A program made the translations under genes and the position numbers. The notes under the pieces are model-generated. The model was not told the origin of the DNA. It searched no databases and worked only from the letters and a program-made list of their open reading frames with translations. DNA of 36,915 nt, from positions 1 through 36,915 of the IMG/VR virus record IMGVR_UViG_3300038619_000274; one strand, written 5' to 3'. Of this stretch, positions 7,576 through 36,498 are shown in pieces; the stretch's first letter is position 1; every line of letters starts with the position of its first letter. The stretch is from a virus.

Positions 7576-7587
7576 GTCACGCGTGAC
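7576..7587. repeat. Repeated palindrome, copy 1 (intergenic)
   Basis: GTCACGCGTGAC, a perfect 12-bp palindrome. This is the only intergenic copy of six and abuts the stem of the terminator at 7587-7618, 17 bases after a stop codon. It could be an operator acting on read-through, or a binding site for a phage or host DNA-binding protein. Confidence 0.85.
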
Positions 7588-7618
7588 GGCCGGGCGGCAA
7601 TCTCCCGGCCGTTTCCTT
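7587..7618 (+). terminator. Intrinsic terminator after 7559
   Basis: CGGCCGGG (7587-7594) pairs perfectly with CCCGGCCG (7604-7611) around a 9-base loop, followed by TTTCCTTT. It ends the transcript of the gene at 6789-7559 and overlaps a copy of the repeated palindrome by one base. Confidence 0.75.
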
Positions 7619-7652
7619 TCCCCCCTCCATCGAAAAAGGCGAGGTCTCTCCC

Positions 7653-8288
7653 ATGAGTGCTGCCGCTTTGTCCCAATCGACCGTCGATCGCACCGATAAT
7701 GCTGCCAAAGCCGCAGCCAATCCCCCCGAACATGCGCAGGCGCAGACGCCGAAGCACGATGGCGCCACCAGCGCCAGCCTCCCGCAATTCCTCTACGTGC
7801 TCGACACCACCGCCACGCACAAAAGCGGCGCGCGCACCCATCAAATGCTGGTGGAGAAGCAGCCGCGCGATTTCACCTTCAAGGTTGGCGAGCCGCTCAA
7901 GCTCGCGCTTCCGATTGCGATCAAGTTTCTGCGCATCCCCGAGTTCCAGCGCACCGACGAGGACGGACTGATCCAGCCGTATCACCGCCAGCCTAAGCAA
8001 CCGCACGAGCTTGGCGCCGGCGAGAGGTTTGCAATCTCCGATCATCAGACCGTCGCCGATTACGGCGAGCTGTCGAACGTCGCGCTACTGCAGCGCGCGC
8101 TAGAGCTGCCGGGCGGCGAACTGCTCAAGGATCAAAGCCGGCCAACGCTGATCGACTTCATTGTCAAGACGACGGTCGAGCGGCGCAAAGCCAATCTGGA
8201 AAACCAGCGCGCTGCCGCCAAGGCAAAGCAGCAGCCGGCCGCCGAGAGCGACAGCGACGAATTCCTGCCCGAGCCTGAAGCCGAATAA
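7653..8288 (+). CDS. Hypothetical virion-module protein
   Basis: A 211-residue soluble protein with a disordered Ala/Gln-rich N-terminus (1-40), a central ordered region (FLYVLDTTATHKSGARTHQ to ELPGGELLKDQ) and a charged C-terminus ending in Asp/Glu residues. The helix FIVKTTVERRKANLENQRAA suggests a coiled-coil near the end. It lies between the probable decoration gene and the gp4-like adaptor and so is likely structural or assembly-related. Family not recognised. Confidence 0.65.
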   Translation: MSAAALSQSTVDRTDNAAKAAANPPEHAQAQTPKHDGATSASLPQFLYVLDTTATHKSGARTHQMLVEKQPRDFTFKVGEPLKLALPIAIKFLRIPEFQRTDEDGLIQPYHRQPKQPHELGAGERFAISDHQTVADYGELSNVALLQRALELPGGELLKDQSRPTLIDFIVKTTVERRKANLENQRAAAKAKQQPAAESDSDEFLPEPEAE

Positions 8289-8300
8289 CGGTCATCGTCA

Positions 8301-9341
8301 GTGAGTTCGGTTCAGTCGGCCAAGCAGCTTTGCGAGCAGGCGCTCCGCAACATTGGTTTCTACCCGGTCACGGATTCGGGCACGGACGGCAGCCAGTTGC
8401 GGCAGGCGATGATTTCGCTTGACCTGATCCTGGGCGAAGAAGCCGGCGTGGATAAGCTGTTTTTCCTCATTCCGGCAACGGTCTCGTTCACGCTGACAAA
8501 CGGCACCCCGCAATACGATCTGCTCGACGCGCTCGGCGCCGACGCGCCGGTTGACGGCATGCAATTCCCGGTCAAGGCGTACCTGCTCACGCCCACCGGA
8601 TCGAGCGTCGTCGGCATTTCCGGGACCATTCCCGGCACCATTGCGGTCGGGCAAAGCGCCGCCGATCTCACCGCCGGCGCGAACATGCCGCCCGGTGCGA
8701 CCGTCGCTGCGATCGACCTCGTTACCAATCAAATCACTTTGAGCGGTCCGAGCACGATCGTCGCCGGCGACAGCCTGCAGTTCAACGGTGCGGTGAATTT
8801 GACCGCGACCGGCACCGTCAACGGAGCCAACCAGGTGGCCGGCGTGTCGAATGTCCACCGCGAGCCGATTGAGATTGTCACGCGTGACACCTTCATGGCG
8901 TCGCGCCGCCCCGAAGAAATCGGCCGGCCGCGCATGGTCTATGTCGACCGCCTGCCGGACAACCAGCTTTACCTGCATCCGGTTTCGTCGCCGACCGATC
9001 AAGCGCTGCATATCCTGCAGCTCGACGTGCAGACCTATGCGCCGAACGTGGCGCCGGCCGGCGTCACCGGCAATCTTCCGCAAGGTGCCGTGCTGACCAA
9101 CTTCCGGCAGGCATGGCAGCGCTTCCTTGTGTTTCAGCTTTCGCACGATCTCGGCTCCGGTGCGATTTCCAAGCTCCCCGAAACCTCGCTCAACCGCTTC
9201 GGCAAGATCGCCGAATCGTCCCGCGCCCGCCTCGAAGCCTACGAGAACCGCGAACACGATACCGAGCCGCCGATCTGCGACGCTTACGATGCCGACATGC
9301 ACGGCTATGACGGCGATCCGGGCTATGTGAGGGTGCGCTGA
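8301..9341 (+). CDS. Head-tail adaptor, P22 gp4-like
   Basis: A 346-residue protein that probably binds below the portal and closes the filled head. Supporting features: an N-terminal helical pair (AKQLCEQALRNIGFYPV ... LRQAMISLDLILGEEAG) and a C-terminal helical part (NFRQAWQRFLVFQLSHDLG ... IAESSRARLEAYENREHD), the layout of P22 gp4-type tail accessory factors. A Gly/Thr-rich beta insertion at about residues 95-180 makes it longer than P22 gp4. The only suitable start is the GTG at 8301. Its last base is shared with the start codon of the following fibre gene. Homology is judged by pattern and position only. Confidence 0.55.
   Translation: MSSVQSAKQLCEQALRNIGFYPVTDSGTDGSQLRQAMISLDLILGEEAGVDKLFFLIPATVSFTLTNGTPQYDLLDALGADAPVDGMQFPVKAYLLTPTGSSVVGISGTIPGTIAVGQSAADLTAGANMPPGATVAAIDLVTNQITLSGPSTIVAGDSLQFNGAVNLTATGTVNGANQVAGVSNVHREPIEIVTRDTFMASRRPEEIGRPRMVYVDRLPDNQLYLHPVSSPTDQALHILQLDVQTYAPNVAPAGVTGNLPQGAVLTNFRQAWQRFLVFQLSHDLGSGAISKLPETSLNRFGKIAESSRARLEAYENREHDTEPPICDAYDADMHGYDGDPGYVRVR
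8877..8888. repeat. Repeated palindrome, copy 2
   Basis: GTCACGCGTGAC inside the gp4-like gene, where it encodes Val-Thr-Arg-Asp. The next base on each side extends it to the 14-bp palindrome TGTCACGCGTGACA. Confidence 0.85.
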
Positions 9342-12547: not shown

Positions 12548-12991
12548 ATGTTTGAGGTCTTTACCGGCATCAGCCAGGCGTGGCGCGAGATCGAGCACAT
12601 CAGCGAGATCACCGGCTTTTCGGTGACGCTCTTGGTCGGGCTTGCCGCGCTCGCCTATCTCGATCCCGGCATCCGCAAATGGGCAATCCGGGGCGGCATC
12701 TTCGTCATCCTCGCCTATGTCGGTGGCATGACGCTCTACGGCCTGGGCGCCAAGGACGTGCGCGGGCAATGGAACGCTGCCGACGCCAAGGCGGACAAGG
12801 AACGTGTCACGCGTGACAAGACGATCAACGACGCGCTGGAAACGAAATACGCACCGCAAATCACGGCGCTGACCAAGCAGTCGGCGGACTTGCAGAAACA
12901 GGTCGAGGCCTATGAGAAAAAGCTACTCGCGGACAAAAGCGCTGGCGCTTCTTGCCAGCTTGGCGCCGACGCTCTGCGCTTGCGCCAGTGA
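12548..12991 (+). CDS. Inner-membrane spanin-like protein with two membrane helices
   Basis: A 147-residue protein with membrane helices at about 22-38 (TGFSVTLLVGLAALAYL) and 50-67 (GIFVILAYVGGMTLYGLG), then a long charged coiled-coil (about 78-130) and a short Cys-containing tail. A coiled-coil i-spanin (Rz-like) is indicated because a lipoprotein gene starts inside its 3' end in another frame, the classical Rz/Rz1 arrangement. Typical i-spanins have one membrane helix, so the second helix is unusual and could make it a holin-spanin fusion or invert the topology. The ribosome site AGGAG lies at 12532-12536. It contains a copy of the repeated palindrome. Confidence 0.65.
   Translation: MFEVFTGISQAWREIEHISEITGFSVTLLVGLAALAYLDPGIRKWAIRGGIFVILAYVGGMTLYGLGAKDVRGQWNAADAKADKERVTRDKTINDALETKYAPQITALTKQSADLQKQVEAYEKKLLADKSAGASCQLGADALRLRQ
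12806..12817. repeat. Repeated palindrome, copy 3
   Basis: GTCACGCGTGAC within the i-spanin-like gene, read as Val-Thr-Arg-Asp. Flanking bases extend it to the 14-bp TGTCACGCGTGACA. Confidence 0.85.
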
Positions 12992-13696: not shown

Positions 13697-13699
13697 TCC

Positions 13700-17380: not shown

Positions 17381-18169
17381 ATGGCAGCTCAGGCGTTGAA
17401 CACTGGCAGCGGCAATCCTACGCCAACGCCACCGCAGCGGTACGCCAGCAACGCGCCGGAATTTGTCGGCGGGCAGACCAATCCGAATACCGGCGAGATC
17501 ATTCCGGCCTCGCAGTCGCTTGCCGATGTGGCGCCGGCGCCGCCGCCGCCGGCGACACCGACGACGCAGCTTGGCACGGTCACGCCGCCACCAAATATAG
17601 CGACGCTCGGTGGCAGCTATCTCGGCGAGACGGTCGGTGCGTCGGTCGGCGGTGCGGTCGGTGCAGGCGCATCGCTGTCGAGTGCCTTTTCCTCGACCGC
17701 GAACAACATCACCAACGTCCTCAAGGGGCCGTTCGGCACACAGCCCGCCGCCGCAGCCAGCTCGACCACATCGGGCCTGCCGGCCGCAACGGCGCCGGTT
17801 GATGCGTTCGGCGAAACCACCGGCACAACGGCGCAGACAGCAACATCGGCGGCAGCGCCGGCGGCAGCCGACGCAACCGGTGCTTTGTCCGGGGCCTCGA
17901 TCGGCAGCGCAGTCGGCGCCGGCCTCGGCGCTGGTTTCTTCACCGCACTCGGCGGCGTGATCTCCGGCGAGAAACCATCGACCTATGTTCCGCAAGCCGC
18001 TGGCGCGACTATCGGCGCAGCCGCGGGCACATTTCTCGGCGCGCTGGTCGGCGGCCCGATCGGCGGCGCCATCGGTGGCGCGGTCGGCGGCTTCGCCGGT
18101 CAATATCTCGGCCCTGACATCTCTAAGGCCGCCAGCGCGATCGGCTCCTTCTTCTCGCATCTGTTCTAA
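17381..18169 (+). CDS. Glycine-zipper protein, probable ejection protein
   Basis: A 262-residue Gly/Ala/Thr-rich protein. The N-terminal 75 residues are Pro-rich and disordered. Two glycine-zipper blocks follow: about 79-100 (GETVGASVGGAVGAGASL) and about 165-245 (SIGSAVGAGLGAGFF and GALVGGPIGGAIGGAVGGF). Such zippers pack helices in membranes and occur in phage proteins that form or enter a channel during DNA ejection. Gene order, after the gp10-like gene and before coiled-coil proteins, matches that use. A direct family assignment is not possible by eye. Confidence 0.65.
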   Translation: MAAQALNTGSGNPTPTPPQRYASNAPEFVGGQTNPNTGEIIPASQSLADVAPAPPPPATPTTQLGTVTPPPNIATLGGSYLGETVGASVGGAVGAGASLSSAFSSTANNITNVLKGPFGTQPAAAASSTTSGLPAATAPVDAFGETTGTTAQTATSAAAPAAADATGALSGASIGSAVGAGLGAGFFTALGGVISGEKPSTYVPQAAGATIGAAAGTFLGALVGGPIGGAIGGAVGGFAGQYLGPDISKAASAIGSFFSHLF

Positions 18170-18184
18170 GAAAGGACACGCCCA

Positions 18185-18694
18185 ATGTTCCCCACCCAAC
18201 CGCAACGGCCCGGCCCTCCGGCGACCGCACCAAATCCCGCGGCAGGACCGCGCCCCGCCCCAGCACCCGCGCCAGCGCCGCAAGGCGGCCCCCCGCCAGG
18301 TGGCGCTGCACCAGGCGGCGGCATACCGCCGGGTCTGCAGCAGCACATCAATCCGAACGATCCGGTGCAAGCAGCCATCCTCAAGCAGATGGGATCGCTG
18401 ACCGCACAGGACGCGGCTACGCTCGCCCAAGGCATCTCGCCGCCGGCGATGCAGGTGCTCAAGAAAATGCTGCCGCAGATCAGTTTTGTTTTTGACGCAC
18501 TCGCTGCCAAGCAAGGCGGCGGCGGTAACGCCGCTCCCGCCGGCAACGGCGCGGGTGCTTCGGACCCCGCGGCAGCAGGTGCCGCAGATGCCGCCGCTGC
18601 ATCGGGCGGCTCGCCGCAGACCCCGCCGCGTGCGGCGCCTCCCGGCGGTTCGGGCTTGCCGCAGCCGCAGACGCGGCTCGGCGAGATGCAATAA
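18185..18694 (+). CDS. Pro/Ala/Gly-rich virion-associated protein
   Basis: A 169-residue protein with a disordered Pro-rich N-terminus (about 1-50), a central ordered helical domain (about 55-115: HINPNDPVQAAILKQMG ... AMQVLKKMLPQISFVFDALA) and a disordered Gly/Ala/Pro C-terminus. The start follows a GAAAGGA site. Its position within the ejection block suggests an internal virion protein. Family not recognised. Confidence 0.6.
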   Translation: MFPTQPQRPGPPATAPNPAAGPRPAPAPAPAPQGGPPPGGAAPGGGIPPGLQQHINPNDPVQAAILKQMGSLTAQDAATLAQGISPPAMQVLKKMLPQISFVFDALAAKQGGGGNAAPAGNGAGASDPAAAGAADAAAASGGSPQTPPRAAPPGGSGLPQPQTRLGEMQ

Positions 18695-18739
18695 GCGGGC
18701 GGACTTTCCTTTCGGTATATCCCTTAAAGGTACAGTCTC

Positions 18740-19309
18740 ATGTGGTCATTCTTAGCGCCGGCGCTTGCCGTCGCCGGCGGCACTTTTCTTGCCGCCAGCA
18801 CCAACGCCAACGCGGCCAACACCGCCGTCCAAGGCATCCAGAGCGCGACGCAGCAGCTCCAGACCACCGATAATAGTATCGCGCAAACTGGCGGGGTCGG
18901 GCCGGGCGCGACGTATCTGCGACAGGTGCTCGCTTCACCGACAAACTTGACGCCGGAACAGCAATATCAACTGCAGCAGAACCGCATTTCCCTCGCCAAT
19001 CAAATCCACGGTTCGGATTATGCCGGCTCGGGACGAACCGCGGCGGCCTTGTTCAAGACTACCGACGACAACTTCGTGAATACCGCGCTGCAGGCCAATC
19101 AGGGCCGCGCCGATACCGCCGCCAAACAGCTCGACGCCACGTCGACGCAAGCGGCCGAATCGGCCGCACAGGCCGGCGCGACGGGCGCCACGTCGGAAGC
19201 CAACATCGAAGCCAATGCCGGGCTTGCCACCGGCAAACTCTACGGCCAGGCGCTCGGCGACGTGACGAGCCTCGTCACGCGGCAGAGCAAATTGCAGAGC
19301 ACCAACTGA
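18740..19309 (+). CDS. Ejection protein, P22 gp7-like
   Basis: A 189-residue protein with an N-terminal Ala-rich hydrophobic segment (FLAPALAVAGGTFLAAS), then long helical, Gln/Ala-rich coiled-coil sequence including LTPEQQYQLQQNRISLANQ and a repeat-like AESAAQAGATGATSEAN stretch. This layout resembles P22 gp7-type DNA-transfer proteins that leave the virion with the DNA. The ATG of the next gene overlaps the stop as TGATG, indicating coupled translation and likely a partner protein. Confidence 0.55.
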   Translation: MWSFLAPALAVAGGTFLAASTNANAANTAVQGIQSATQQLQTTDNSIAQTGGVGPGATYLRQVLASPTNLTPEQQYQLQQNRISLANQIHGSDYAGSGRTAAALFKTTDDNFVNTALQANQGRADTAAKQLDATSTQAAESAAQAGATGATSEANIEANAGLATGKLYGQALGDVTSLVTRQSKLQSTN

Positions 19310-23547: not shown

Positions 23548-24804
23548 ATGACCAATTATCGAAGCAAAACCTGCTGCGTCGTCGATAACGGCCTGTTTCT
23601 CGAAGTGGCGATCACGCTCGCCAAGGACTTCGGCAAGGTCCTCTATTACATGCCGTGGCAGTCCGGCTATCCGACGTCGAACGTGCTGCTCGTAGGCCAC
23701 GGTATTCCCGGCGTCACGCGCATCGACAGCTTTTGGCCGCTGCTCGACGAGATTGACCTGTTCGTGTTCCCCGACGTGTACGAGGGTCCGCTGCAGGAGC
23801 ATCTTGCGAGCCTCGGCAAGCGGGTGTGGGGCAGCCGCAACGGCGACCAGCTTGAGCTATTCCGCGCCGACAGCAAGAAACACATGAAGTCGCTTGGCAT
23901 CGACATTGGGCCGTGGAAACTCATCAAGGGCATCGACAAGCTGCGCGAACACCTTGAAAAGCACGACGATCAATGGGTGAAGATTTCGCGCACGCGCGGC
24001 GACTTCGAGACCTTCCACGCGGAAAACTACGACCTGGTGAAGCCCAAGATCGACGAGCTGGAGCACCAGCTCGGCGCCAAGGGCGAGATCATGGAATTCA
24101 TCGTCGAGGAAGGCATCCCCGACGCGGTGGAGATCGCCTACGACGGCTTCACCATCGACGGCAAGTTTGCCAAGAACGCGACGTTCGGCATCGAGGTCAA
24201 AGACAAGGGCCTGGTGACGAAGACCACCAAATACGACGCCCTGCCCGAGCAACTGCGCACGGTCAACGACAAGCTCAAAGGCACGCTGGCCGAATTCCGC
24301 TATCGCAACTTCCTCGCGGTCGAAATGCGGATCACCAAAGACGGCACGCCTTACGTGATTGATCCGTGCTGTCGCGCCGGCTCGCCGCCGTCCGAATTGC
24401 TGCTCGAACTGATCTGTAATTGGGCGGACATCATGTGGGAAGGCGCCGAGGGCACCGTGGTCGAGCCGGTGTTTCAGGCGAAGTGGGGCGCCGAGCTGCT
24501 GCTCATCTCCGATTGGGGCGACACCCACTGGCAACCGCTGCAATTCCCGAAGTCGATCCGCGAGCAAGTCAAGCTGCGCTACGCCGCTGTCATCGACGGC
24601 ACCTATTACGTCGTGCCGCAGGCCTCCGCGCATCCCGAGATCGGCGCCGTTGTCGCCACCGGCGACACGATGGACGCCGCGATCAAGGAAGTCTGCGCGA
24701 TCGCCGAGAAGGTGAAGGGCTTTTACGTCGAGGTCGTGCCCGAGTGCCTCGATGAAGCGCAGGAGCAATTCGACAAGCTGCGCGAGTTCGGGATTAAGGT
24801 TTAG
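23548..24804 (+). CDS. ATP-grasp ligase-like protein
   Basis: A 418-residue protein with an ATP-grasp profile. An N-terminal pre-grasp domain (about 1-110, with KTCCVVDNGLFLEVAITLAKDFG) is followed by a lid-like region (WVKISRTRGDFETFH, GEIMEFIVEEGIPDAVEIAYDGF), a metal/ATP-binding segment (FLAVEMRITKDGTPYVIDPCCRAG) and a C-terminal domain (EIGAVVATGDTMDAAIKEVCAIAE) resembling the end of PurD-type glycinamide ribonucleotide synthetases. Such enzymes ligate a carboxylate to an amine with ATP. It starts two bases after the SpeD-like gene and probably acts with it, but no substrate can be named. Its TAG overlaps the stop of the minus-strand gene as TTAG. Confidence 0.65.
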   Translation: MTNYRSKTCCVVDNGLFLEVAITLAKDFGKVLYYMPWQSGYPTSNVLLVGHGIPGVTRIDSFWPLLDEIDLFVFPDVYEGPLQEHLASLGKRVWGSRNGDQLELFRADSKKHMKSLGIDIGPWKLIKGIDKLREHLEKHDDQWVKISRTRGDFETFHAENYDLVKPKIDELEHQLGAKGEIMEFIVEEGIPDAVEIAYDGFTIDGKFAKNATFGIEVKDKGLVTKTTKYDALPEQLRTVNDKLKGTLAEFRYRNFLAVEMRITKDGTPYVIDPCCRAGSPPSELLLELICNWADIMWEGAEGTVVEPVFQAKWGAELLLISDWGDTHWQPLQFPKSIREQVKLRYAAVIDGTYYVVPQASAHPEIGAVVATGDTMDAAIKEVCAIAEKVKGFYVEVVPECLDEAQEQFDKLREFGIKV

Positions 24805-25327: not shown

Positions 25328-28300
25328 ATGATCCGCTGTCCCAACTTCCGCTCCGATAAGGCGCGGGATGACTTCAATGCTGTGCTGGCGCGGCTCGGCG
25401 GCGTAGCCATGTCCGCCGACGACATCTCGCCGCGGCAACCCTATCTCGCGCGCCTCAACGAAAAGCAAACGCAGGCTTATCACGTCGCGCACTATTTATG
25501 GAACGCGCACAAGACGCCGGCGGAGATCGGGGCTTTCCTCGATGCACTCGACCAGGTGAGGGATGCGCTGGAGGCAGAGCCGGCGCCGACACCCGCAAAA
25601 ACGCTGGCACCAGCGCAAAAAGCGGAGAACGAAACGGGACGGCCTCCTTCTGTTCCGGGTGACGTAGCGTCAACCGAAGCCGCCCCGCTGTCGAACCTGC
25701 CGGCGATCAATCTGGCGCGGGATCTGCTCGAACGGCTGCGCGCCGGCAAGCCGATCTCGACCAAGATCATGCAGCAGATGGCGGCCGAGATTTATGGCGC
25801 CAAGCTGTCCGAGGGGCATTTCGACCGCAAGGACATGCAGGACGCGCTTGAGCTTGCGGTGAACATGCGGATTGCCGAAGACGCCGCATTGCGCACCGAT
25901 AAGGGCGAGTGGCGCGAGCCGATGGCGAAGCTCGACGAGCTTTTGTCGAAGCTGCCGACACAGCGGGTGCGCTCCGAGGAACAAGAGAGCTTCCAGCAAT
26001 TCTCGACGCCACCGACCTATAGCGCTGCCGCGGCCTATGCCGCGAACCTGCGCGATGGCGACGTCGTGCTTGAGCCTTCGGCCGGCACCGGCTCGCTGGT
26101 CGCGGCGACCTCAAAGCCGGGCGTGAAAATTATCGCCAACGAATTGTCCGAGCGGCGCACCGCGCTGCTGCGCGCGCTGATCGGCGACCGGATTTTTCAC
26201 GAGAACGCCGAGCAGCTCAACAACACGCTGCCCGACAGCGTGAAGCCTTCCATCGTGGTGATGAACCCGCCGTTTTCGCAGACCGCCGGCCGCATGGGCG
26301 ACAAGAAGGTGCCGATGACCGGCGCCATCCACGTCGAGCAAGGCTTAAAGCGCCTCGAACCGGGTGGGCGCCTGGTGGCGATCGTCGGCCGCGGCATGAC
26401 CATGGGGGCGCCGGTCTATCGCGCCTGGTGGTCGAAGATTGGCAAGGAATACACCGTCCGCGCCAATATCGGCGTCGACGGCAAGGTGTTCGAGAAATAC
26501 GGCACCACTTTCGGCACTCGTTTACTCGTCATAGATAAGGTGAAGCCGACCGGCGAAGCGCCGGTTTTGGCAGACGCGCAGACGGTCGATGACCTGATGC
26601 GCGCATTGGAGCCGATCCGAAATGCCCGGACTGCCGCAGAACAACATGGTGCTCAATCGGCTGGCGCTGAATTGGCTGAAGCAAGCCAAGACGCCGGGGG
26701 TGCCCCATTATCTGAACCTGCTGCTGCTGGCGGAGTGGGGCCTGGAGAACGGGGCATCGGGGGGCTGGCCGGAGAAGGAGCGACCAGCACTGCGGGATCA
26801 GGTGAACCTGATGTTCGGGTGGAAGCCGGCGAACACGCTGGCGTGGCTGCTGTCGAACCCGGAAGCGGGCGACCGAGCGGAGCAACAGGACAATCTCCTG
26901 AAGTTGCTGGAGGCCGTGGACAACCCGAAGGACGCGGCGGCGCACGTCCTCAACGCAATCTGGGACCGGCTGGTGGCGACGACGCCGCAGCTACAGCCCG
27001 CAGCGAGCGAGTTGAGCTAGAGCACGCCGAGCCTGGTTCGCAGGGCGCAGCGGAAATTTCCGACAGCCTCTACGATCAGTACCGCCCGCAGCGCGTCAAA
27101 GTGCCGGGCGCCAAGCCGCATCCGTCAAAGCTCGTCGAATCCGCGGCGATGGCATCCGTGCCGCCGCCGGCGCCGACGTACAAGCCGAGCCTGCCGCGCG
27201 CGGTGATCGAGAAGGGCTTGCTCTCCGACGCGCAGATCGAACCCGTCATCTATGCCGGCGAGGCGCACGCCAAGATGTTGCCGGCGGCGGAAGGCGAGCC
27301 GGCGAGGCGCAAGGGCTTTTTCATCGGCGACGGCACCGGCGTCGGCAAAGGCCGCGAGGTCGCCGGCATCATCCTCGATAACTGGAACCAGGGGCGCACC
27401 AAGGCCGTGTGGGTGTCGGAGAAGCGAAAGCTGCTCACCGACGCCAAGCGCGACTGGAAGGGGCTGCAACAAAACCCCGATCACCTTTTCGACGTGGGCA
27501 AGGTCAAGACCGGCGAGCCGATCGACGCCAAGAAGGGCATCGCGTTTGTTACCTACGACACGCTCAAGGGCGGCATGTCGGATCAAGCGGCGCTCTCCCG
27601 CGGCGGTTTCGTGCGCAAGCAGTCCGTCTCGGTCAACGGCCAGCCTGGCTTGGTGCAATCGGTCGGCAAAGTCGCGCGCGGCAAACCGGCGCAGATCACC
27701 GTCAAGCTCGAAAACGGCACCACCGTCACCGTGCCGGCGAAAGAAGTGAAGGCGGAGGAAAAGGCCGCGGTCAAATCGCGCATCGACCAGCTCGCCGATT
27801 GGTTCGGCAAGGACTTCGACGGCGTGATTGCTTTCGATGAAGCCCACAACATGGGCAACGCCACCGACACCAAGGGCGACCGCGGACAGAAAGACGCGGC
27901 GATGAAGGCAATCGCCGGCATGGACCTGCAGAAGCGGCTCCCCAACGCCCGCATTGTCTATGTCTCCGCCACCGGCGCCACCGAGGTTTCCAATCTCGCT
28001 TATGCCGATCGGCTCGGGCTGTGGGGCAGGGGCACGCCGTTTGCCTCGCGCGCCGCGTTCGTCTCGCAAGTCACCGAAGGCGGCATCGCGGCGATGGAGC
28101 TCATCGCCCGCGACATGAAGCAGCTCGGCCTCTACACCGCGCGCAATCTCTCCTATGACGGCGTTGAATACGATCGCGTCGAGCACAAGCTCGATGCCAA
28201 CCAGCGCGAGATTTACGACACGTTGGCGCAAGCCTGGCAGGTGGTGCTGCGCGACATCAACGCGGCGCTCAAGCTCACCGGCGGCAACTTCGACAGCCGC

Positions 28301-31300
28301 GCGAAGTCCGCCGCCATGTCGGCGTTTTGGGGCGGCCATCAGCGGTTTTTCAATCAGATCATCACCTCGATGCAGATGCCGTCCGTCGTCAAGGCGGTCG
28401 AGCAGGATCTCGCGGCCGGCCGGCAGGTGGTGCTGCAACTCACCAACACCAACGAGGCGTCGCAGGAGCGCGCCGCGGCGAAAGCGCAGACCGCCGAGGA
28501 CATCGAGGACCTCGACATCACGCCGCGCGACCAGATCATCCAGCTCGTCGAAAACTCGTTCCCGACGCAGGAATATGAAACCTACGTCGACGACGACGGC
28601 AAGGAGCGCTCGCGCCCGGTGGTCGATAGCAACGGCAATGCGGTGCAGAACAAGGAAGCCGTCGCCATGCGCGAGCGGCTGATCGACCAGTTGGCTTCGG
28701 TGCGCGTGCCGCAGGGACCGCTCGACCTGGTGCTCGATCACTTTGGCGTCGATACGGTCGCCGAAGTCACCGGCCGCGGGCGCCGTTTTGTGCTCAAGCC
28801 CGACGAGAAAACCGGGCAGAAGCGCCGCGTCGAGGAAAGCCGGCCGGGCTCGGCCAACCAGGCGGAGACCGACGCCTTCCAGGAGGGCAAGAAGAAAGTC
28901 CTGATCTTCTCGGAAGCCGGCGGCACTGGCGCGTCTTACCATGCCGACAATACCGCGGCCTCGAAGGACGCGCGGCGCTCGCACTACCTGGTGCAAGGCG
29001 GCTGGCGCGCCGACAAGGCGGTGCAGGGCTTTGGCCGTACCCACCGCAGCAACCAGGCGTCGGCGCCAATCTTCCGGCTGGTGACGACGGACCTGCAGGG
29101 GCAGAAGCGGTTTATCTCCTCGATCGCGCGCCGGCTCGGGCAGCTCGGCGCGCTCACCAAGGGCGAACGCAAAGCCGGCGACCAAGGCATCTTCTCGGCC
29201 CGCGACAATCTCGAAAGCACCGAGGCGCGCACCGCGCTCACACAGTTTTTCCGGGACATCTACAACAACGCCGTTCCCGGCATCGACATCAACGACTTCG
29301 AGGAACAGACCGGCCTGAAGCTGCGCAACAAGGACGAGGAAGGCCGCAGCATGGGGATGCTGGAGGACTTGCCGCCGATCACGCAATTCCTCAACCGGCT
29401 ATTGTCGCTCAAGTTCGACCTGCAGAACACCACGTTCAACTCGTTCTCGGAACGGCTCGACGCGGTGATCGAGGCGCGGCGCGAGGCCGGCCTGCTCGAT
29501 GTGGGCCTGGAAACCGTCAAGGCCGACAAGATCGCCAAGGAGACCGAGCAGACCGTGCATACGGTCGAAGGCTCGGGCGCGCAGACAAAATACGTCAAGC
29601 TGAAATTGTCAGACAAGTTCAAGGCCACCGACTTCGATACCGTGGCCTCGAACGAATGGCGCAAGGTGACGGCCTGGCTCGAAAGCCCGAACGGCAAAGT
29701 GTACGCCGCGGCCGAGGCGCCGAGCCTCACGGACGCCAGCACCGGCCGCATCATCGACAGCTATCGCCTTGTCAGTCCGGTGTCGGATTCGCGCACCATC
29801 AACAAGGAGAACGTCGAGAAGCCCGATACCAAGTGGAAGAAGATCGAAAAGAGCGAAGCCTCCGCGCTGTGGCGCAAGGAGATCGCCGCCGCGCCTGAGT
29901 ATGTCACGCGTGACATGCACCTGATTACCGGTGCGATCCTGCCGATCTGGGATCGGCTCAAAGGCAACCCCCGCGTGGTACGGCTTGCGACCGAGGCCGG
30001 CGAGCGGCTGATCGGGCGCGTTGTGCCAAACGACGCGATCGCCGCCACGCTTAAAGCTCTCGGCGCCGAAGCAAAGGCACAGAGCTACACGGCCGCGGAC
30101 GTGTTCCTGAAGGTGCGCGCCGGCGGCCGCGCTACGCTGGCAAACGGCTGGACCTTGAGCCGGCGCCTGGTCGCCGGCGAGCACCGCATCGAATTGACCG
30201 GCCCGAGCGCATTTTCCGAAGCGCAGGAGGTCAAGAAAGACGGCGTGTTCACCGAGCGCATCGACTATAAGACGCGGTTTTTCGTGCCGACCGACGCCGA
30301 AGCAGGCTCTCGCGTCATCGAGCGCCTCACCCAATACCGGCCGGTGACGGACCTGGTGGAGCGCGGCGCCGCACCCCACGACATGGCCGCCGGCGACGAG
30401 CCGATGTTCTCGGTGAAGGGCGACGATCGTGTTAAGGGCGAAAGCGACGCACTCGCGGAAGCGGTCGCGCGGCGTCTTTTGCCGGCGTTGCGCGCCGAGC
30501 TTGACCGGATGGGCCTCTCGGACATTCCGCTCAATCTGCCCGGCACGCTGACGGCGCGCATCGGCGCCAAAAAGTACGAACTCAACGGCTATTACTTCCG
30601 CCAAGCGATCACGATTGCGCTCAATGCCGAAGACATCGGGCGAACCTTGCACCATGAGGCGCTGCACGCGCTTCACGATCTCGGGGTGTTCAAAGACACC
30701 GAATGGCAAATCCTGACGCGGCAATCCGACCGCGCCTGGCGCAAGCAATTCCGCATCGAGGAGGGTTACGCGCATCTGGCTGATGAGCTGCGCACCGAGG
30801 AAGGTATCGCCCACGCCTACGCCGCCTGGGCAAAAGGCGAGATGAAAGTGGACGGTCGGATCGCCCGGCTGTTCAAGCGCATCCGCGACTTCTTCGAAGC
30901 GTTGCGCAACGCGCTGCGCGGGCTTGGCTTCAAAAGCGCCGAGGACGTGTTCCGCAACATCAAAGAAGGCGAGATCGGGAACCGAGCACGCGCCGGCGCC
31001 GGCGACGAGCCGATGTTCGAGATGCGCCGGGACAATGCGCCGGCGGAAGCTCGCGCCACGCCGAACCTCAACCGCCGCATCCGCGACCGCATCGAAGCGG
31101 CGCTCGACAGCAAGTTCGGCCGCAAATTCATCGAGGGGACGCAAGACCTCTCGCACCCGGTCAAGCTCTTGCAGGACGAGCTTGAAATGCGCCGGGAAGG
31201 CGCCTTCGAGGACCCGGAGGACTTCTACACCCGCAAGCGCCTTTATCCCGGCCGCGTCGGCGCCTGGACCGACACCTTCAACAAGAAGCATCTCGATCCG

Positions 31301-33484
31301 ATCGTGCGGCTGTTGAAGGCCAACAATATTCCGCTAGCCGACGCCGGCGACTTCCTCTACGCGCTGCACGCCGCCGAGCGCAACGAGGCCATGGACAGGA
31401 TCAATCCCGGCCTTGGCGGCGAAGGCTCGGGCATGTCGAACGAGGAAGCCGCCAAGATCATCGCCGAAGTCAAGCGCGGCGAGCACGCCGCCGCCTTCGA
31501 CGAGCTGCGCGAGAAAGTCGGCAAAATCCGCGACCTGATCCTCAACGTGATGGAGAAGTCCGGGCTAGAAAAGCCCGAGGTCATCGCCGAATGGAAGAAA
31601 CGCTACGAGGACTATGTTCCGCTGCGCGGGTGGGAAGTGGAGCCGGACGATGCGCCGCCGGAATTTCGCGGACCTGGCGCTGGCTTCAATGTCCGCGGCA
31701 AAGAGGTCAAGCAGGCGCTTGGCCGCCGCTCGAAGGCCGACAACCCGATCGTCAACCTGTTTGACCAGGCGTATCGCACCTTCGATCGCGCCGAGCGGAA
31801 CCGTTACCTGCAATCGCTCTACCGCGCGATTGATGATCTCGGCGACGAGGCGTCCGACGTCGCCACGCTCGATCGCGGCAAGCCGCAGCGCACCATAGAC
31901 AAGCGCACCGGCCTGGTCAAAACCGTGGAGAATTCCGGCCAGTATATGAACCCGAAGGCGGTCTATCTTAAATTCGACGGCAATCCGCACTTCATGGTGT
32001 TTGCCGATCAGGAGCTTGCCGAAGCGGTCAAGCGCATGAGCGCGGACAGCGTAGGCATCTTTCACGCCTATCTGAAGCTGCAGAACAAGATGAAGGCGCT
32101 ATGGACGCATTACAGCCCCGACTTCTTGTTCCGGCATTTCATGTTCCGCTACCCGATCGAGGGCGCGCTCAACTCGTTCGAGCAAAAGGAGGGCGGCGAG
32201 CATAAGGTCAATCAGTATATCCGCGACGCCTTCCCGTTCGTCGGCAGGGCCAGCAAAGCTATCTTTGCTTCCAACAAGGGGATCGTTCACGACGATCCAG
32301 CAATCCGGGAAATGCAGGAGGTATGGGATAAAGTCCGGCGCGGCGGCGGGGCGATGATGTTTCGCAACATGCGCGACATCGACCTCACCCGCGAGCACCT
32401 GCAGACCGCGCTCAAGGACTTGTCCGATCGGCCGCTCGCCAACGCGCGCGCCAAGTGGCGGCACGGCATCGAGGCGTTGGATACAATCACCAATGCGCTC
32501 GACAACTCGCTCCGGCTAGCTGCGGCATATTCTGCGATCAAGCAAGGCAAGACCGTGCAGCAGGCGGCGCTGATCGCGCGCGAGGCCACGGTTGATTTCC
32601 AGCTCAAGGGCCGCTGGAACAACCTCATGGGCATCTTCTTTCCGTTCTCCAACGTCGCCATCCAGACCACCGCGCGGATGACCAAGGCGGTTTATCGCTC
32701 GCGCATCATGCGGCGCGTGTTCGGCTCGACGCTGCTCGCGGGCTTCCTCGTGTCGGCGTTCAATTATCTCGTCGCCGGCGACGACAAGGACAGCATCCCG
32801 TTCTTCGACAAAATCCCGGAGTGGGACCGGCGGCTCAACTTCATCATCCTCAACCCGTTCGATACCGACGACAAAGGCCCGCAGCCGATCAAGATACCGA
32901 TGCCGTACAATTGGGCGTTCCCGCTCGTGCTCGGCTACGCCTTCGGCGGCATGATGTTCGGCAAGGAAGGACCAAAAAAACTGATGACCATGCTGGCACG
33001 CTCGGCAATGGAGACCTTCACCCCGCTCGGCTCGGAACAGAACCTCGCCGGCATAGCGACGCCGGAAGCCTTCCGGCCGCTCGTTCACATCTACACCAAC
33101 GAGGATTGGGCCGGGCGCCCGATCCACGTCGACCCCGATTTCCAGAAACGCCCGAACGCCTATTCGCCGAGGAAAACCACCGGCGCCGGCTGGTCGGCGA
33201 TCGCCAAGGGCGTCAATACCGCGACCGGCGGCTCACCAGGCAAGTCCGGCGTGCTCGACCTCTACCCCGAAGATTACCGGGAAATGATCGACCAGTTCGC
33301 CGGCACGCAAATCCGGCTCGGACAGAACATTTGGGACACCGGCGAATCGGTAGCCGAAGGCAAATGGCCGCAAGCGACGAAAATCCCGCTCGAACGCGTC
33401 ATCCGCGGCACCGACTATGACGCCGCCGATCGCGCGCGCGGCGATGAAGCACGCGATCGACAAAAGCATCCGTGGAAGCACTGA
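25328..33484 (+). CDS. Giant DarB-like polyvalent protein (methyltransferase-helicase-protease)
   Basis: A 2718-residue protein, probably injected with DNA to block host restriction, as P1 DarB does. Domains in order: N-terminal region; adenine N6-methyltransferase (about 220-420) with LEPSAGTGSL and NPPF near 313-316; low-complexity linker (about 435-580); SF2 helicase of the strawberry-notch type (about 580-1300) with Walker A GDGTGVGKG (from 667), DEAH (837-840), SATG (about 879) and QGFGRTHR (1233-1240). A zincin follows with HEALH at 1776-1780, then helical regions and an LPD38-like C-terminus with hydrophobic helix GSTLLAGFLVSAFNYLV and the motif DLYPEDY. DEPMF motifs occur before and after the zincin. 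There is no good ribosome site at the ATG; MSADDIS at 25412 is an alternative start. The linker contains a nested gene. Confidence 0.85.
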   Translation: MIRCPNFRSDKARDDFNAVLARLGGVAMSADDISPRQPYLARLNEKQTQAYHVAHYLWNAHKTPAEIGAFLDALDQVRDALEAEPAPTPAKTLAPAQKAENETGRPPSVPGDVASTEAAPLSNLPAINLARDLLERLRAGKPISTKIMQQMAAEIYGAKLSEGHFDRKDMQDALELAVNMRIAEDAALRTDKGEWREPMAKLDELLSKLPTQRVRSEEQESFQQFSTPPTYSAAAAYAANLRDGDVVLEPSAGTGSLVAATSKPGVKIIANELSERRTALLRALIGDRIFHENAEQLNNTLPDSVKPSIVVMNPPFSQTAGRMGDKKVPMTGAIHVEQGLKRLEPGGRLVAIVGRGMTMGAPVYRAWWSKIGKEYTVRANIGVDGKVFEKYGTTFGTRLLVIDKVKPTGEAPVLADAQTVDDLMRALEPIRNARTAAEQHGAQSAGAELAEASQDAGGAPLSEPAAAGGVGPGERGIGGLAGEGATSTAGSGEPDVRVEAGEHAGVAAVEPGSGRPSGATGQSPEVAGGRGQPEGRGGARPQRNLGPAGGDDAAATARSERVELEHAEPGSQGAAEISDSLYDQYRPQRVKVPGAKPHPSKLVESAAMASVPPPAPTYKPSLPRAVIEKGLLSDAQIEPVIYAGEAHAKMLPAAEGEPARRKGFFIGDGTGVGKGREVAGIILDNWNQGRTKAVWVSEKRKLLTDAKRDWKGLQQNPDHLFDVGKVKTGEPIDAKKGIAFVTYDTLKGGMSDQAALSRGGFVRKQSVSVNGQPGLVQSVGKVARGKPAQITVKLENGTTVTVPAKEVKAEEKAAVKSRIDQLADWFGKDFDGVIAFDEAHNMGNATDTKGDRGQKDAAMKAIAGMDLQKRLPNARIVYVSATGATEVSNLAYADRLGLWGRGTPFASRAAFVSQVTEGGIAAMELIARDMKQLGLYTARNLSYDGVEYDRVEHKLDANQREIYDTLAQAWQVVLRDINAALKLTGGNFDSRAKSAAMSAFWGGHQRFFNQIITSMQMPSVVKAVEQDLAAGRQVVLQLTNTNEASQERAAAKAQTAEDIEDLDITPRDQIIQLVENSFPTQEYETYVDDDGKERSRPVVDSNGNAVQNKEAVAMRERLIDQLASVRVPQGPLDLVLDHFGVDTVAEVTGRGRRFVLKPDEKTGQKRRVEESRPGSANQAETDAFQEGKKKVLIFSEAGGTGASYHADNTAASKDARRSHYLVQGGWRADKAVQGFGRTHRSNQASAPIFRLVTTDLQGQKRFISSIARRLGQLGALTKGERKAGDQGIFSARDNLESTEARTALTQFFRDIYNNAVPGIDINDFEEQTGLKLRNKDEEGRSMGMLEDLPPITQFLNRLLSLKFDLQNTTFNSFSERLDAVIEARREAGLLDVGLETVKADKIAKETEQTVHTVEGSGAQTKYVKLKLSDKFKATDFDTVASNEWRKVTAWLESPNGKVYAAAEAPSLTDASTGRIIDSYRLVSPVSDSRTINKENVEKPDTKWKKIEKSEASALWRKEIAAAPEYVTRDMHLITGAILPIWDRLKGNPRVVRLATEAGERLIGRVVPNDAIAATLKALGAEAKAQSYTAADVFLKVRAGGRATLANGWTLSRRLVAGEHRIELTGPSAFSEAQEVKKDGVFTERIDYKTRFFVPTDAEAGSRVIERLTQYRPVTDLVERGAAPHDMAAGDEPMFSVKGDDRVKGESDALAEAVARRLLPALRAELDRMGLSDIPLNLPGTLTARIGAKKYELNGYYFRQAITIALNAEDIGRTLHHEALHALHDLGVFKDTEWQILTRQSDRAWRKQFRIEEGYAHLADELRTEEGIAHAYAAWAKGEMKVDGRIARLFKRIRDFFEALRNALRGLGFKSAEDVFRNIKEGEIGNRARAGAGDEPMFEMRRDNAPAEARATPNLNRRIRDRIEAALDSKFGRKFIEGTQDLSHPVKLLQDELEMRREGAFEDPEDFYTRKRLYPGRVGAWTDTFNKKHLDPIVRLLKANNIPLADAGDFLYALHAAERNEAMDRINPGLGGEGSGMSNEEAAKIIAEVKRGEHAAAFDELREKVGKIRDLILNVMEKSGLEKPEVIAEWKKRYEDYVPLRGWEVEPDDAPPEFRGPGAGFNVRGKEVKQALGRRSKADNPIVNLFDQAYRTFDRAERNRYLQSLYRAIDDLGDEASDVATLDRGKPQRTIDKRTGLVKTVENSGQYMNPKAVYLKFDGNPHFMVFADQELAEAVKRMSADSVGIFHAYLKLQNKMKALWTHYSPDFLFRHFMFRYPIEGALNSFEQKEGGEHKVNQYIRDAFPFVGRASKAIFASNKGIVHDDPAIREMQEVWDKVRRGGGAMMFRNMRDIDLTREHLQTALKDLSDRPLANARAKWRHGIEALDTITNALDNSLRLAAAYSAIKQGKTVQQAALIAREATVDFQLKGRWNNLMGIFFPFSNVAIQTTARMTKAVYRSRIMRRVFGSTLLAGFLVSAFNYLVAGDDKDSIPFFDKIPEWDRRLNFIILNPFDTDDKGPQPIKIPMPYNWAFPLVLGYAFGGMMFGKEGPKKLMTMLARSAMETFTPLGSEQNLAGIATPEAFRPLVHIYTNEDWAGRPIHVDPDFQKRPNAYSPRKTTGAGWSAIAKGVNTATGGSPGKSGVLDLYPEDYREMIDQFAGTQIRLGQNIWDTGESVAEGKWPQATKIPLERVIRGTDYDAADRARGDEARDRQKHPWKH
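26622..27020 (+). CDS. Nested 132-residue protein inside the giant polyvalent gene
   Basis: An open frame in the +1 frame of the giant gene, lying exactly on the linker between the methyltransferase and helicase domains. Composition is that of a globular helical protein (LNRLALNWLKQAKTPGVP, YLNLLLLAEWGLENG, VNLMFGWKPANTLAWLLSNP, LLKLLEAVDNPKDAAAH). Third codon positions are nearly all G or C in this frame, while the giant frame here has many A/T third positions and encodes Ala/Gly/Glu-rich sequence. GGAG at 26608-26611 is ten bases from the ATG, a weak site; the ATG at 26646 is an alternative. No family recognised; function unknown. Confidence 0.7.
   Translation: MPGLPQNNMVLNRLALNWLKQAKTPGVPHYLNLLLLAEWGLENGASGGWPEKERPALRDQVNLMFGWKPANTLAWLLSNPEAGDRAEQQDNLLKLLEAVDNPKDAAAHVLNAIWDRLVATTPQLQPAASELS
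29903..29914. repeat. Repeated palindrome, copy 5
   Basis: GTCACGCGTGAC within the giant polyvalent gene, encoding Val-Thr-Arg-Asp. Flanking bases extend it to ATGTCACGCGTGACAT, a 16-bp perfect palindrome. Confidence 0.85.
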
Positions 33485-34068: not shown

Positions 34069-34075
34069 GCGTTTT

Positions 34076-34099: not shown

Positions 34100-34115
34100 G
34101 CCCTAGAGCTTGTGG

Positions 34116-34436: not shown

Positions 34437-34471
34437 TTGAAGCCTCTCAACATCTTGTATCTCTCAGCGTT

Positions 34472-34495
34472 TGTGTGTGGCAACCGGATAAGCAT
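34472..34495 (-). repeat. 24-bp inverted repeat, right arm
   Basis: Inverted partner of 34076-34099, lying between the start of the gene at 34436 and the stop of the gene at 34505. A TTTGCGTTTTA motif follows this arm directly and occurs in the same orientation just before the left arm. Confidence 0.8.
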
Positions 34496-34504
34496 GTTTG
34501 CGTT

Positions 34505-34681
34505 TTAATCAACGCCGTGCTTCGGACAACCGTGCACCCACTCGCCGGCGATCTTATTCGACTTCCAACCTTCGCGCTTTGCTGCGGGCCAAACCTCATT
34601 CCATTCGTCGCTGTCGCCGACGAATATCTCATCGCAGCTATCGCACTCGATGACGATCTTGCCGTGCTGGTGGTCGATCAT
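34505..34681 (-). CDS. Small Cys-rich phage protein
   Basis: A 58-residue minus-strand protein with CDSCDEIF near residue 13 and a C-terminal CPKHGVD, a Cys-x-x-Cys ... Cys-x-x-His arrangement that suggests a zinc site, around the block SDEWNEVWPAAKREGWKSNK. This pattern is common in small phage and prophage proteins of unknown function. The ATG overlaps the TGA of the HerA-like gene as ATGA, and GGGAGG lies just upstream, so translation is coupled. Confidence 0.75.
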   Translation of the reverse strand: MIDHQHGKIVIECDSCDEIFVGDSDEWNEVWPAAKREGWKSNKIAGEWVHGCPKHGVD

Positions 34682-36498
34682 GCGGCCTCCCTGCCTTCCA
34701 TCAACATCGGGGAAGCGCGGAGCTGCTTGTCACGCGTGACTTCGATCAGGCCAGGCGATCGCAATCGACCGAGATAAGTGCTGTAGGTTCCCGACGTATG
34801 AACGAGACCGACATCGGCCGCCAACTGCTCGCGCGTTGTCCATTGCGGGTAAATCTCGGCGAGCCGCCGCAACATCGGCCCGACGCCGGAGATTTTAGAC
34901 ACCCAAAACTCGACGAGCGCGCGACCAGGCGGCGGCATCGTCGGCACGCTGTCGCCGAGATCGGCTAGACCCTTCTCGGTGACAAACCAAAGGTCGCCGC
35001 GCCGCTCGATACGGCCAGCGTCGGACAGCCTGCCGCGATAGGTCGACCAGGTGCCGGAGTTCTTAAAACCAGCGGCAACGCGCCATTGGCCTTCCGTCAT
35101 GCCTGCCGGGTAGACGCTCGCCAGCGCCGCAAGCGGCTTGCGCTCGGCGCCGAGCGGTCGATCGCCGTCGTCGGAAGGGGTGGCGCTCTTGGCGCCGGAT
35201 GGCACTCGGGGCGGGACGCTTGGCGCGGCGCGGGGCACCATTGTCGGCGCCGGCGCCGCTGGCGTGAACGTCACCGGCTCCGCCTTCGCGTCCCGGATAT
35301 TCACAGCCTCCAACTCGCCGTCGATCTGCTCCATGAACTTGCGCGCATAGCCGCGCAAGGTGCCGAGGACGCTTTTGAGGTTTTTGCGCAGTTCGCGTTC
35401 CATGACACCCTTGAGCTTCTTTTCGGCCTGCTCAAACCCACGCTTCTCGGCGGCGGCGATCGCGTCCTTGTCGGGCGGCGCCTTGGCTGTTGACTTATAA
35501 GTCAACTTCGCGATTTCCCGGTCCCTTTCAGCCACTTGCGCCCGCAGCGCCCGCGGATCGTTGGCTTTTGCCTCCGCCTCGACCGTCGCCAGGCGCTCCT
35601 TCAAGTCCCCGAGATTGATCGGTTTGAGCGCCTTGGCTTTCTTCGCCCGCTCGCCTCGCTTCGGCGCCCGCGAGCTGTCGAATGTCGCCTTGCGCGGGAA
35701 CTGCACAGTCTCGAGCACGCCATGTGTCGGGAGCCACACGACGCCTTCGCCCACCTGCATCGCCGGCAGCGAATCCTTGATCGCCTTGCCCTGCGCCTTG
35801 TCGGCCTGGCCTTCGATCCACGCATCGAGCGCATCGCGGTCCTGTGACGACGTGAGCTTGAACGCGATTAGGCCGTCCATTTGCGAGAGCACGTTTTTGT
35901 TGACGACGGCGGGGCGCTGCGAGATCAGCCACGGCACAAATCCCTTGACGCGGCCGCGGCGCACGATGTTCTCCATGAGGCCGAGCAAGGTCTCGTCGCC
36001 GCCATGCGGCTTTTGCGGTGCGAACAGGTCGGCCTCGTCAACGACCAGGTGGAACGGTTCACCGCCGGCCTTGCGGTAGATGGTTTCGAGGAACGCCGTC
36101 ATGAAGCGCCGTTCCGACGATTTGCTGCCAAGCTCGCACAAGTCGACGATGCAGCTCTCCGCCATCGTCGCGGCTGTCTCGCCGATCAGCGCGCCGGCAT
36201 ACTCGTCGAGCGGGAGATCGCCGCGCGATCCGCCGAAGATCGCGACATTGTAGGGCGACGGATGCTTGCCGTCCGCGGTGAGCCGCAATCCCCACCAGAC
36301 TGAAAGTGGGTCAATGATGACCACTTTGGCCTTTTGTTGGAGCAGCCGTTCCACCGCAGCACCTGCATTGTAGGTTTTTCCACTTCCCGAGGTTCCTAGA
36401 AAACCCAAGCGATCATCGAGAGCGGAGTTAGGTATTGGATATGCAGTCATTGGGCCCTGACCGCTCAACAACGCAATCGCTTGCTCTAAATCCGTCAT
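34678..36498 (-). CDS. HerA/FtsK-like ATPase with winged-helix C-terminus
   Basis: A 606-residue P-loop ATPase of the HerA-FtsK group (DUF87-like): Walker A GTSGSGKT at 35-42, KVVIIDPLSVWWG after it, Walker B LVVDEAD at about 150, and a sensor-like WLISQRPAVVNKNVLSQMD. Residues about 280-380 are a charged coiled-coil, 400-450 a Pro-rich linker, and the C-terminus has two winged-helix-like repeats (YPAGMTEGQWRVAAGFKNSGTWSTYRGRLSDAG and a related copy with GTYSTYLGRLRSPG). HerA proteins pump or process DNA, usually with a NurA nuclease; none is visible here. The start follows AGAGG. The role in this phage is unknown; a tailed phage normally packages with terminase instead. Confidence 0.75.
   Translation of the reverse strand: MTDLEQAIALLSGQGPMTAYPIPNSALDDRLGFLGTSGSGKTYNAGAAVERLLQQKAKVVIIDPLSVWWGLRLTADGKHPSPYNVAIFGGSRGDLPLDEYAGALIGETAATMAESCIVDLCELGSKSSERRFMTAFLETIYRKAGGEPFHLVVDEADLFAPQKPHGGDETLLGLMENIVRRGRVKGFVPWLISQRPAVVNKNVLSQMDGLIAFKLTSSQDRDALDAWIEGQADKAQGKAIKDSLPAMQVGEGVVWLPTHGVLETVQFPRKATFDSSRAPKRGERAKKAKALKPINLGDLKERLATVEAEAKANDPRALRAQVAERDREIAKLTYKSTAKAPPDKDAIAAAEKRGFEQAEKKLKGVMERELRKNLKSVLGTLRGYARKFMEQIDGELEAVNIRDAKAEPVTFTPAAPAPTMVPRAAPSVPPRVPSGAKSATPSDDGDRPLGAERKPLAALASVYPAGMTEGQWRVAAGFKNSGTWSTYRGRLSDAGRIERRGDLWFVTEKGLADLGDSVPTMPPPGRALVEFWVSKISGVGPMLRRLAEIYPQWTTREQLAADVGLVHTSGTYSTYLGRLRSPGLIEVTRDKQLRASPMLMEGREAA
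34729..34740. repeat. Repeated palindrome, copy 6
   Basis: GTCACGCGTGAC near the 3' end of the minus-strand HerA-like gene. Read on that strand it again encodes Val-Thr-Arg-Asp. Confidence 0.85.

Follow-up and report, generated by a model that had tools for sequence, protein, structure and literature searches.

Which protein would read a phage genome at six scattered points through one and the same perfect palindrome? Why phage genomes contain scattered palindromes is still puzzling, and the question is raised here by a 12-bp word, GTCACGCGTGAC, that occurs six times in IMG/VR virus record IMGVR_UViG_3300038619_000274 (positions 1 to 36,915; this whole stretch of 36,915 nucleotides is referred to as the window). 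The answer favored here, with a probability of about 0.7, is that the six palindromes are dispersed putative binding sites of the phage's own O-like replication initiator, which ties the word to a candidate protein class. The window is a fragment, and we infer that the phage it comes from carries such an initiator.

The palindrome in the window and in related phages

The presence of six dispersed exact copies is real; the positions listed in a first-pass annotation of the sequence (7576, 8877, 12806, 22600, 29903, and 34729) were each confirmed exactly. The word is made of two CGTGAC hexamers placed head-to-head with zero gap, and its symmetry is perfect, hence it has no asymmetric orientation with transcription. 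Markov estimates gave 0.003 to 0.004 exact copies expected in the 36.9-kb window, in agreement with the value of about 0.004 put forward earlier, and GTCACGCGTGAC ranks commonest among the palindromic 12-mers of the window. No copies with one or two mismatches were found in the window; dinucleotide shuffles predicted 3.25 sites at ≤2 mismatches, and only the six exact ones are there. The core CACGCGTG was found solely within the 12-mer (6/6). The palindrome reaches at least 14 bp at four copies rather than the three first counted, as TGTCACGCGTGACA at 8877, 12806, and 29903 and as CGTCACGCGTGACG at 22600.

The copies sit in or beside genes ranging from structural to HerA-type and thus are not confined to an origin region. 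One of the six (7576) is intergenic. It had been described as abutting a terminator and does touch a terminator-like GC hairpin, but the surrounding stretch of 91 bases folds no differently from its shuffles (z = −0.03). The five in-gene copies all read Val-Thr-Arg-Asp (VTRD), as had been noted.

Relatives were gathered by a portal gene search, which yielded 25 related contigs (records are denoted by G numbers). The word was present in five of these, with seven copies in G018, four in G008, three in G019, two in G009, and one in G003; zero copies were found in G004, G006, G014 to G017, and G021 to G025. In G002, four copies of ATCACGCGTGAC, counting both strands, and one of GTCGCGCGTGAC are found instead. 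A portal scan of genome contigs for prophage relatives returned five loci, one at 42% and four weak (24 to 28%), and gave no host assignment.

Constraint on the DNA rather than the protein

The shared VTRD phase is weak evidence on its own, a caution already given in the first-pass annotation; exact codon use, by contrast, is strong. The predicted proteins of the window contain VTRD five times, each time encoded by GTC ACG CGT GAC, for which the probability is 0.011 per case. A check of VTRD and SRVT codons spanned 13 records. In six site-bearing records, all 12 VTRD and all 8 SRVT peptides were exact sites (∼1% expected for each), and the single VTRD of G003, which has one site, was exact as well. 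Among records lacking the word, two VTRD of G020 and one SRVT of G125 were not exact, and the remaining five of the 13 had neither peptide. With every VTRD peptide of the site-bearing records in the exact codons, the constraint is therefore on DNA. Aligned homologues carry unrelated residues at some sites (34729 in the window and 38624 in G116), and the peptide is therefore dispensable to the protein. Across 14 records, in-gene copies use two reading frames (17 VTRD-type and 13 SRV-type). Of 98 half-sites, 54% are preceded by T, compared with a background of 18%.

Insertion of a mobile palindrome was considered and is unsupported at 8877, 29903, 34729, and G018 18483, where homologues align ungapped and differ by substitutions. 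The alignments were gapped at 12806, 22600, and G018 53404, and the conclusion covers the ungapped sites.

Hexamer clusters in and near initiator genes

In G018, G019, G009, and G008, the word is part of a compact cluster, in which GTCACGCGTGAC is followed by CGTGAC and then by CGTGAC and/or GTCACG. The cluster looks like a replication origin. A gene for an O-like protein contains it in G008 and G072; in G042 and its near twin G117 the cluster is ∼140 to 245 bp upstream of the O-like gene, and in G018, G019, and G009 it is 1.4 to 1.8 kb away from that gene. Both G018 and G019 retain one exact palindrome within the O-like gene itself. The exact 12-mer occupies equivalent aligned codons in the genes of 7 of 18 initiators, two of these seven proteins being identical. 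A short open reading frame (ORF) of 58 to 65 residues, similar in sequence among the records, adjoins the cluster at G018 16808, G019 7369 to 7545, and G116 1804 to 1998.

The O-like protein of G018 (encoded at 18037 to 18909) gave partial matches to two families of replication initiation proteins, PHROG 3729 (E value, 9e−15) and PHROG 3926 (E value, 1e−7); its best match was PHROG 21423, an unnamed family, and no Pfam match was obtained for it. A structural model of this protein (mean predicted local distance difference test score, 81; predicted template modeling score, 0.41) has an N-terminal helical domain, and a long Arg/Lys-rich helix (residues 119 to 137) precedes the linker that encodes the site.

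Similar arrays were found in named phages. Thirteen phages with related or DUF1376-type proteins were surveyed, with ∼4 to 5 kb read for each, and hexamer arrays were present in the initiator or initiator-like genes of seven. The number of hexamers inside the gene was nine in Escherichia coli vB_EcoS-813R8, 11 in Pseudomonas Marin (where the gene is annotated as hypothetical), seven in Aeromonas pAEv1818, five in Gordonia Zitch, four in Latilactobacillus TMW 1.1386 P1, and three in Ruminococcus phiRg519T2; the sequence read outside the gene held three in Marin and zero in each of the other five. The gene of Javan290 contains CGTTAC six times, and that of ppBjS10J-1 contains CGTTAC five times and CGTAAC four times.

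Viral contigs were also scanned for the pattern GTCACGCGTGAC-N0-8-CGTGAC, and at least 120 stretches were identified, compared with one and four for scrambled controls of equal layout (GCTACG and GACTCG, respectively). All of these clusters lie within an open frame of ≥70 codons, which is nearly trivial at high GC content. The longest open frame was taken for each cluster (120 among the matches listed, dereplicated to 109), although at some loci this frame looks antisense. The 109 ORFs match 74 PHROG families, the largest of which covers 29 of them. Among the top 25 families by members, 18 are replication families (replication initiation, primosomal, DnaD-like, O-like, replisome organizer, and replication proteins) and seven are unknown. 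In a random sample of 20 ORFs, a replication-initiation, primosomal, or helicase-loader family was matched by 16, and the other four had no family match. When a permissive regular expression was used to look for a basic motif ahead of the peptide, it matched 64/120 versus 8/27, a weak separation of the sets.

The initiator genes of G120 and G122 have an equal layout with GTTACG. The GTTACG version of the scan identified 59 stretches, and for 58 of these loci the top 25 families comprise 15 replication, six unknown, and four virion families, the last with one member each. Taken together, the layout in G120 and G122 and the replication families in the GTTACG set indicate that the motif varies in step with the initiator genes. 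Versions of the iteron layout of the GTTACGCGTAAC type were seen in the G120 and G122 initiator genes and in the GTTACG-scan loci L437 to L495.

Dispersed copies accompany one initiator subclade

A profile search with the initiator found 21 loci. Each of the 10 best matches is in a word-carrying record (one to eight copies), and of the other 11 loci, two are in records with the word (G123, two copies; G072, six copies) and nine in records without it. Six of the 21 had served in the query, and their records were known beforehand to contain the word. Among the 15 loci new to the search, the word was found in all five that rank in the best ten (G115, G116, G117, G073, and G118) and in 1 of the remaining 10 (G123), with the limits on independence that the G117 initiator is that of query member G042 and that G073 had already turned up in a palindrome scan. 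A tree built from 18 initiators (17 of them different) places the 10 records in a single group with support of 91/97.

Copy density follows the same division. The 10 subclade records hold 36 palindromes in 384 kb, whereas 16 other records hold 1 in 593 kb. Controls for copy density were other phage records of similar GC content; the 16 consisted of nine portal relatives and seven initiator relatives, including the near-duplicates G012/G013 and G125/G126, and G000, G002, G072, G123, G111, and G067 were left out of both sets, as were the copy-free portal records G004, G006, G014 to G017, and G021 to G025. In the palindrome scan, records were counted for 89 loci among the matches listed, of which G067, G072, and G111 hold at least four copies; another four loci belong to records that were counted elsewhere, and 26 were left uncounted (L007 to L009, L014, L016, L019, L026, L028, L035, L039 to L041, L049, L050, L056, L057, L059, L062, L075, L077 to L082, and L084). 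On this comparison of sequences, hexamer arrays are widespread and the dispersed palindromes are apparently a lineage trait.

Placement of the copies and a proposed role

Copies of the word are over-represented between genes. Of the 60 sites in 14 site-bearing records, 30 fall at least partly outside predicted genes, where 6.6 would be expected; these values, obtained on related records, are indicative, since the genes were called by a simple finder that loses some genes (for example, the ParB-like gene of G018). In 12 records, the excess holds both for sites that have another hexamer no more than 40 bp away (10 of 13 not wholly in a gene, 1.6 expected) and for isolated sites (13 of 36, 3.7 expected; binomial P value, 3e−5). 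Sites fall in the gap upstream of homologous genes at G018 31169, G008 8999, and G002 16331 (one mismatch). The HerA-type gene of G018, G116, and G117 also has a site 17 to 24 bp upstream, which in G116 falls inside the end of the preceding gene; the window has no site there. In G018, G116, and G072, copies occur far from the hexamer cluster as well.

The favored reading can be put as a mechanism. Each CGTGAC would be an initiator half-site, or iteron, so that a palindrome would hold two initiator molecules. The hexamer cluster in the initiator gene or within ∼2 kb of it would be the origin, while the single palindromes spread through early and late genes would hold initiator dimers at scattered points. 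Such dispersed sites would limit free initiator and keep it away from the origin; as the initiator level rises, they could damp transcription or re-initiation, acting as roadblocks at gene borders. The dispersed copies would then be, in effect, replication-linked stoperators. Judged from the placement of the isolated copies, a combined titration and roadblock role most likely fits best; partition and local loading of replication proteins at these copies are other possible roles.

Secondary full origins were rejected as an account of the isolated copies. Of 49 sites in 12 records, 13 have one to six further hexamers, and all 13 are within 2 kb of an initiator gene; the other 36 have no further hexamer within 40 bp, and their AT content is mostly ordinary. 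With neither extra hexamers nor AT-rich flanks, the isolated copies are unlikely to be complete origins.

Several observations weigh against assigning the word to the initiator. A subclade initiator gave no tblastn match within the window fragment, and a fold search with the initiator model returned no solved structure at E values up to 0.001. The support for the subclade fork (91/97) is middling, below the mark that the tool sets for strong. The initiator family as a whole gives no separation by presence, since it has members in 11 of 13 records with the word and in 7 of 11 without it (a set selected in part for the presence of an initiator), and a protein of the G018 22105 to 22581 type (∼150 residues; YRKTDRR-type) separates better, at 9/13 and 1/11. 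In G111 (seven copies) and G067 (four copies) the word is dispersed and a subclade initiator was not found; in G111, a gene of DUF1376-like appearance (judged by eye) lies 5 kb from the cluster. The 12-mer is absent from ten records with distant initiators (E. coli-type, Pseudomonas, Aeromonas, Gordonia, and firmicute), and therefore a hexamer array alone brings no dispersal. Among the named phages, Mycobacterium Awesomesauce has four hexamers in the gene and four outside, and 6 of the 13 genes hold the hexamer once or not at all: Oenococcus has one inside and one outside, and no in-gene hexamers were found in Bordetella IFTN2, Acinetobacter Ab105-1phi, Streptococcus Javan290, Bradyrhizobium ppBjS10J-1, or Pseudomonas P54. 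Finally, the control set for the scan (A5; 23 ORFs over isolated 14-mers) is not clean, as it includes replication genes, with at most five members sharing one replication family beside tail, head, and SbcCD families.

Other candidate binders

The first-pass annotation had likened the pattern to dispersed repressor sites (stoperators), a partition or nucleoid-protein site, or a modification site, and had suggested a phage-encoded repressor or ParB-like protein as the binder. The general kind, dispersed sites of a phage-encoded DNA-binding protein, is borne out, in that relatives share the word and it is over-represented between genes; the particular binders are not supported.

A different protein acting at these origins, either the YRKTDRR-type protein or a host nucleoid or replication factor, could also be the reader of the word. 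The distribution of the YRKTDRR-type family with the word, which beats that of the whole initiator family, argues for it, but this protein was not found in the word-carrying records G072, G123, G111, and G067. A host factor would have to be shared among hosts of several phyla, because arrays occur in proteobacterial, actinobacterial, and firmicute phages, and the GTTACG variant, which co-varies with the initiator genes that contain it, speaks for the initiator instead. We therefore consider a separate protein of this kind unlikely.

Another reading is that of true stoperators, sites at which a phage immunity repressor would block transcription at many points in the lysogen. The word is dispersed, exact, and enriched between genes, and the cluster is near CI/Cro-type genes in G018 and G019, so the likeness noted at first has some basis. 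However, known stoperators are asymmetric and oriented (PMC9283540, excerpt), and this word is a perfect palindrome. The CI/Cro-type genes of G008 and G019, and also those of G003 (one copy of the word) and G020 (none), bear a palindrome of the TACAG-N5-CTGTA type instead, and in G018 a third palindrome was seen by eye near these genes; with other palindromes at the CI/Cro-type genes of G008, G019, and G018, immunity appears to use other sites. CI-like relatives are present in records with and without the word, and a repressor would leave the arrays in initiator genes unexplained. The probability that the immunity repressor is the binder is accordingly small.

The TACA-N7-TGTA palindrome (often TACAG-N5-CTGTA) is probably an immunity operator. 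It occurs at CI/Cro-type genes at positions 23589, 24345, and 24376 of G008; 7089, 7120, and 7934 of G019; 12441, 12472, and 13153 of G003; and 50939, 50970, and 51706 of G020. The window has two matches, both inside genes (22186 and 33701).

Partition sites of the centromere-like kind, such as those that the plasmid prophage N15 carries across its genome, are very unlikely. Dispersed inverted repeats would suit such a system, and in G018 a ParB-like gene (PHROG 1033; Pfam DUF6551, with ParB_N below the cutoff) adjoins the site at 2911. Nevertheless, tblastn with this gene matched none of 31 other records, and no ParA Walker motif turned up in all six frames of 32 records, mostly fragments in both cases; the hexamer arrays lie in initiator genes and not beside par genes. 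A modification site would likewise leave those arrays unexplained. A promoter-like reading was rejected as well. That chance, or a codon or protein bias towards VTRD, produced the copies can be dismissed for practical purposes: five copies do read VTRD, but the minute expected number, the improbable codons in five of five cases, and the use of two reading frames over 14 records refute it.

Comparison with known systems

In lambda-type origins, iterons for the O initiator lie inside gene O. The location of ori-lambda in gene O is also given in PMC6022878 (excerpt). The hexamer arrays described above resemble this arrangement, being in an O-like initiator gene after the predicted DNA-binding part. 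They differ in that one short hexamer is common to many initiator families and that additional single palindromes extend over the rest of the genome, unrestricted to the origin. Phage N15 has centromere-like inverted repeats dispersed over its plasmid prophage. As in the window, a few inverted repeats are spread across a temperate phage genome; N15, however, needs ParAB, whereas one ParB-like gene was found here.

The stoperators of L5-type mycobacteriophages are asymmetric, oriented 13-mers bound by the immunity repressor, many of them in short intergenic gaps (PMC9283540, excerpt). Going by that excerpt, both systems have many near-identical dispersed sites, many in short gaps between genes, but the sites described here are palindromic, apparently distinct from the immunity-region palindromes, and related to an origin-like cluster. 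The cluster O mycobacteriophage Corndog carries 34 copies of a 17-bp palindrome whose function was called unknown (PMC4351075, excerpt). This is also a dispersed perfect dyad with invariant half-sites, many of them intergenic and about one-third in genes (PMC4351075, excerpt). The Corndog sequence is a different one with a 3-bp spacer, and the excerpt of PMC4351075 draws no link to an initiator. The ZEBRA protein of Epstein-Barr virus is described as binding the origin, and its motifs as lying scattered over the genome of the virus (PMC2924361, excerpt); in this respect one protein serves both origin and scattered motifs. ZEBRA is a eukaryotic herpesvirus protein, and no homology is claimed.

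By analogy, the system would combine the workings of lambda-type origin iterons with those of stoperators. It departs from the known kinds in that it lacks the asymmetry of stoperators, probably also their role as sites of the immunity repressor, and the restriction of iterons to the origin. A literature search with thin coverage of subscription papers on phage origins returned no paper that links the motif to phages.

If initiators do act at dispersed sites, a direct coupling of replication and late expression would be possible. Independently of this, the short hexamer points, from sequence alone, to candidate origins inside the initiator genes of many phages. A broader proposal is tentative, and we regard it as somewhat doubtful: GTNACG (mainly GTCACG/CGTGAC, with GTTACG and apparently GTAACG variants) may be an origin code shared by a large set of phage replication initiators across proteobacterial, actinobacterial, and firmicute phages, and the initiator of one clade may have turned genome-wide regulator via head-to-head palindromes, coupling replication level to expression or genome organization.

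Gene context of the six copies and other features of the window

The window encodes a portal protein (954 to 3104, + strand; PHROG 156) and a major head protein (5558 to 6697, + strand; PHROG 334), and its gene content also includes tail-fibre-type, endolysin, and head-closure genes and a 2,718-residue polyvalent protein. The intergenic copy (7576 to 7587) lies 16 bp after the ORF at 6789 to 7559, adjoining the GC hairpin. The second copy (8877 to 8888) is in a late gene (8301 to 9341, + strand), and its position is conserved in relatives: the equivalent codons carry the exact word at G008 4663 and G009 7079 and a version with one mismatch at G002 11953. At these codons G020 keeps VTRD with a different Arg codon (one mismatch), and the word is absent from six other aligned homologues.

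The third copy (12806 to 12817), in the ORF at 12548 to 12991, is absent from all three aligned homologues. The fourth (22600 to 22611) lies in the variable 3′ part of the ORF at 20407 to 22818, which has mixed PHROG matches, including DarB-like and minor head protein. The fifth (29903 to 29914), a 16-bp palindrome within the giant ORF at 25328 to 33484, has an exact counterpart at G003 59001. The sixth (34729 to 34740) is near the 3′ end of the HerA/DUF87-type ATPase gene (34678 to 36498, − strand) and is absent from all seven aligned homologues.

The 2,718-residue protein encoded by the giant ORF has methyltransferase-like and other long matches (PHROG 14770, 9133, and 6263). The first ORF of the window (19 to 1050) contains repeated PPNLVL-type peptide units with matching DNA repeats such as AACCTGGTGCTG.

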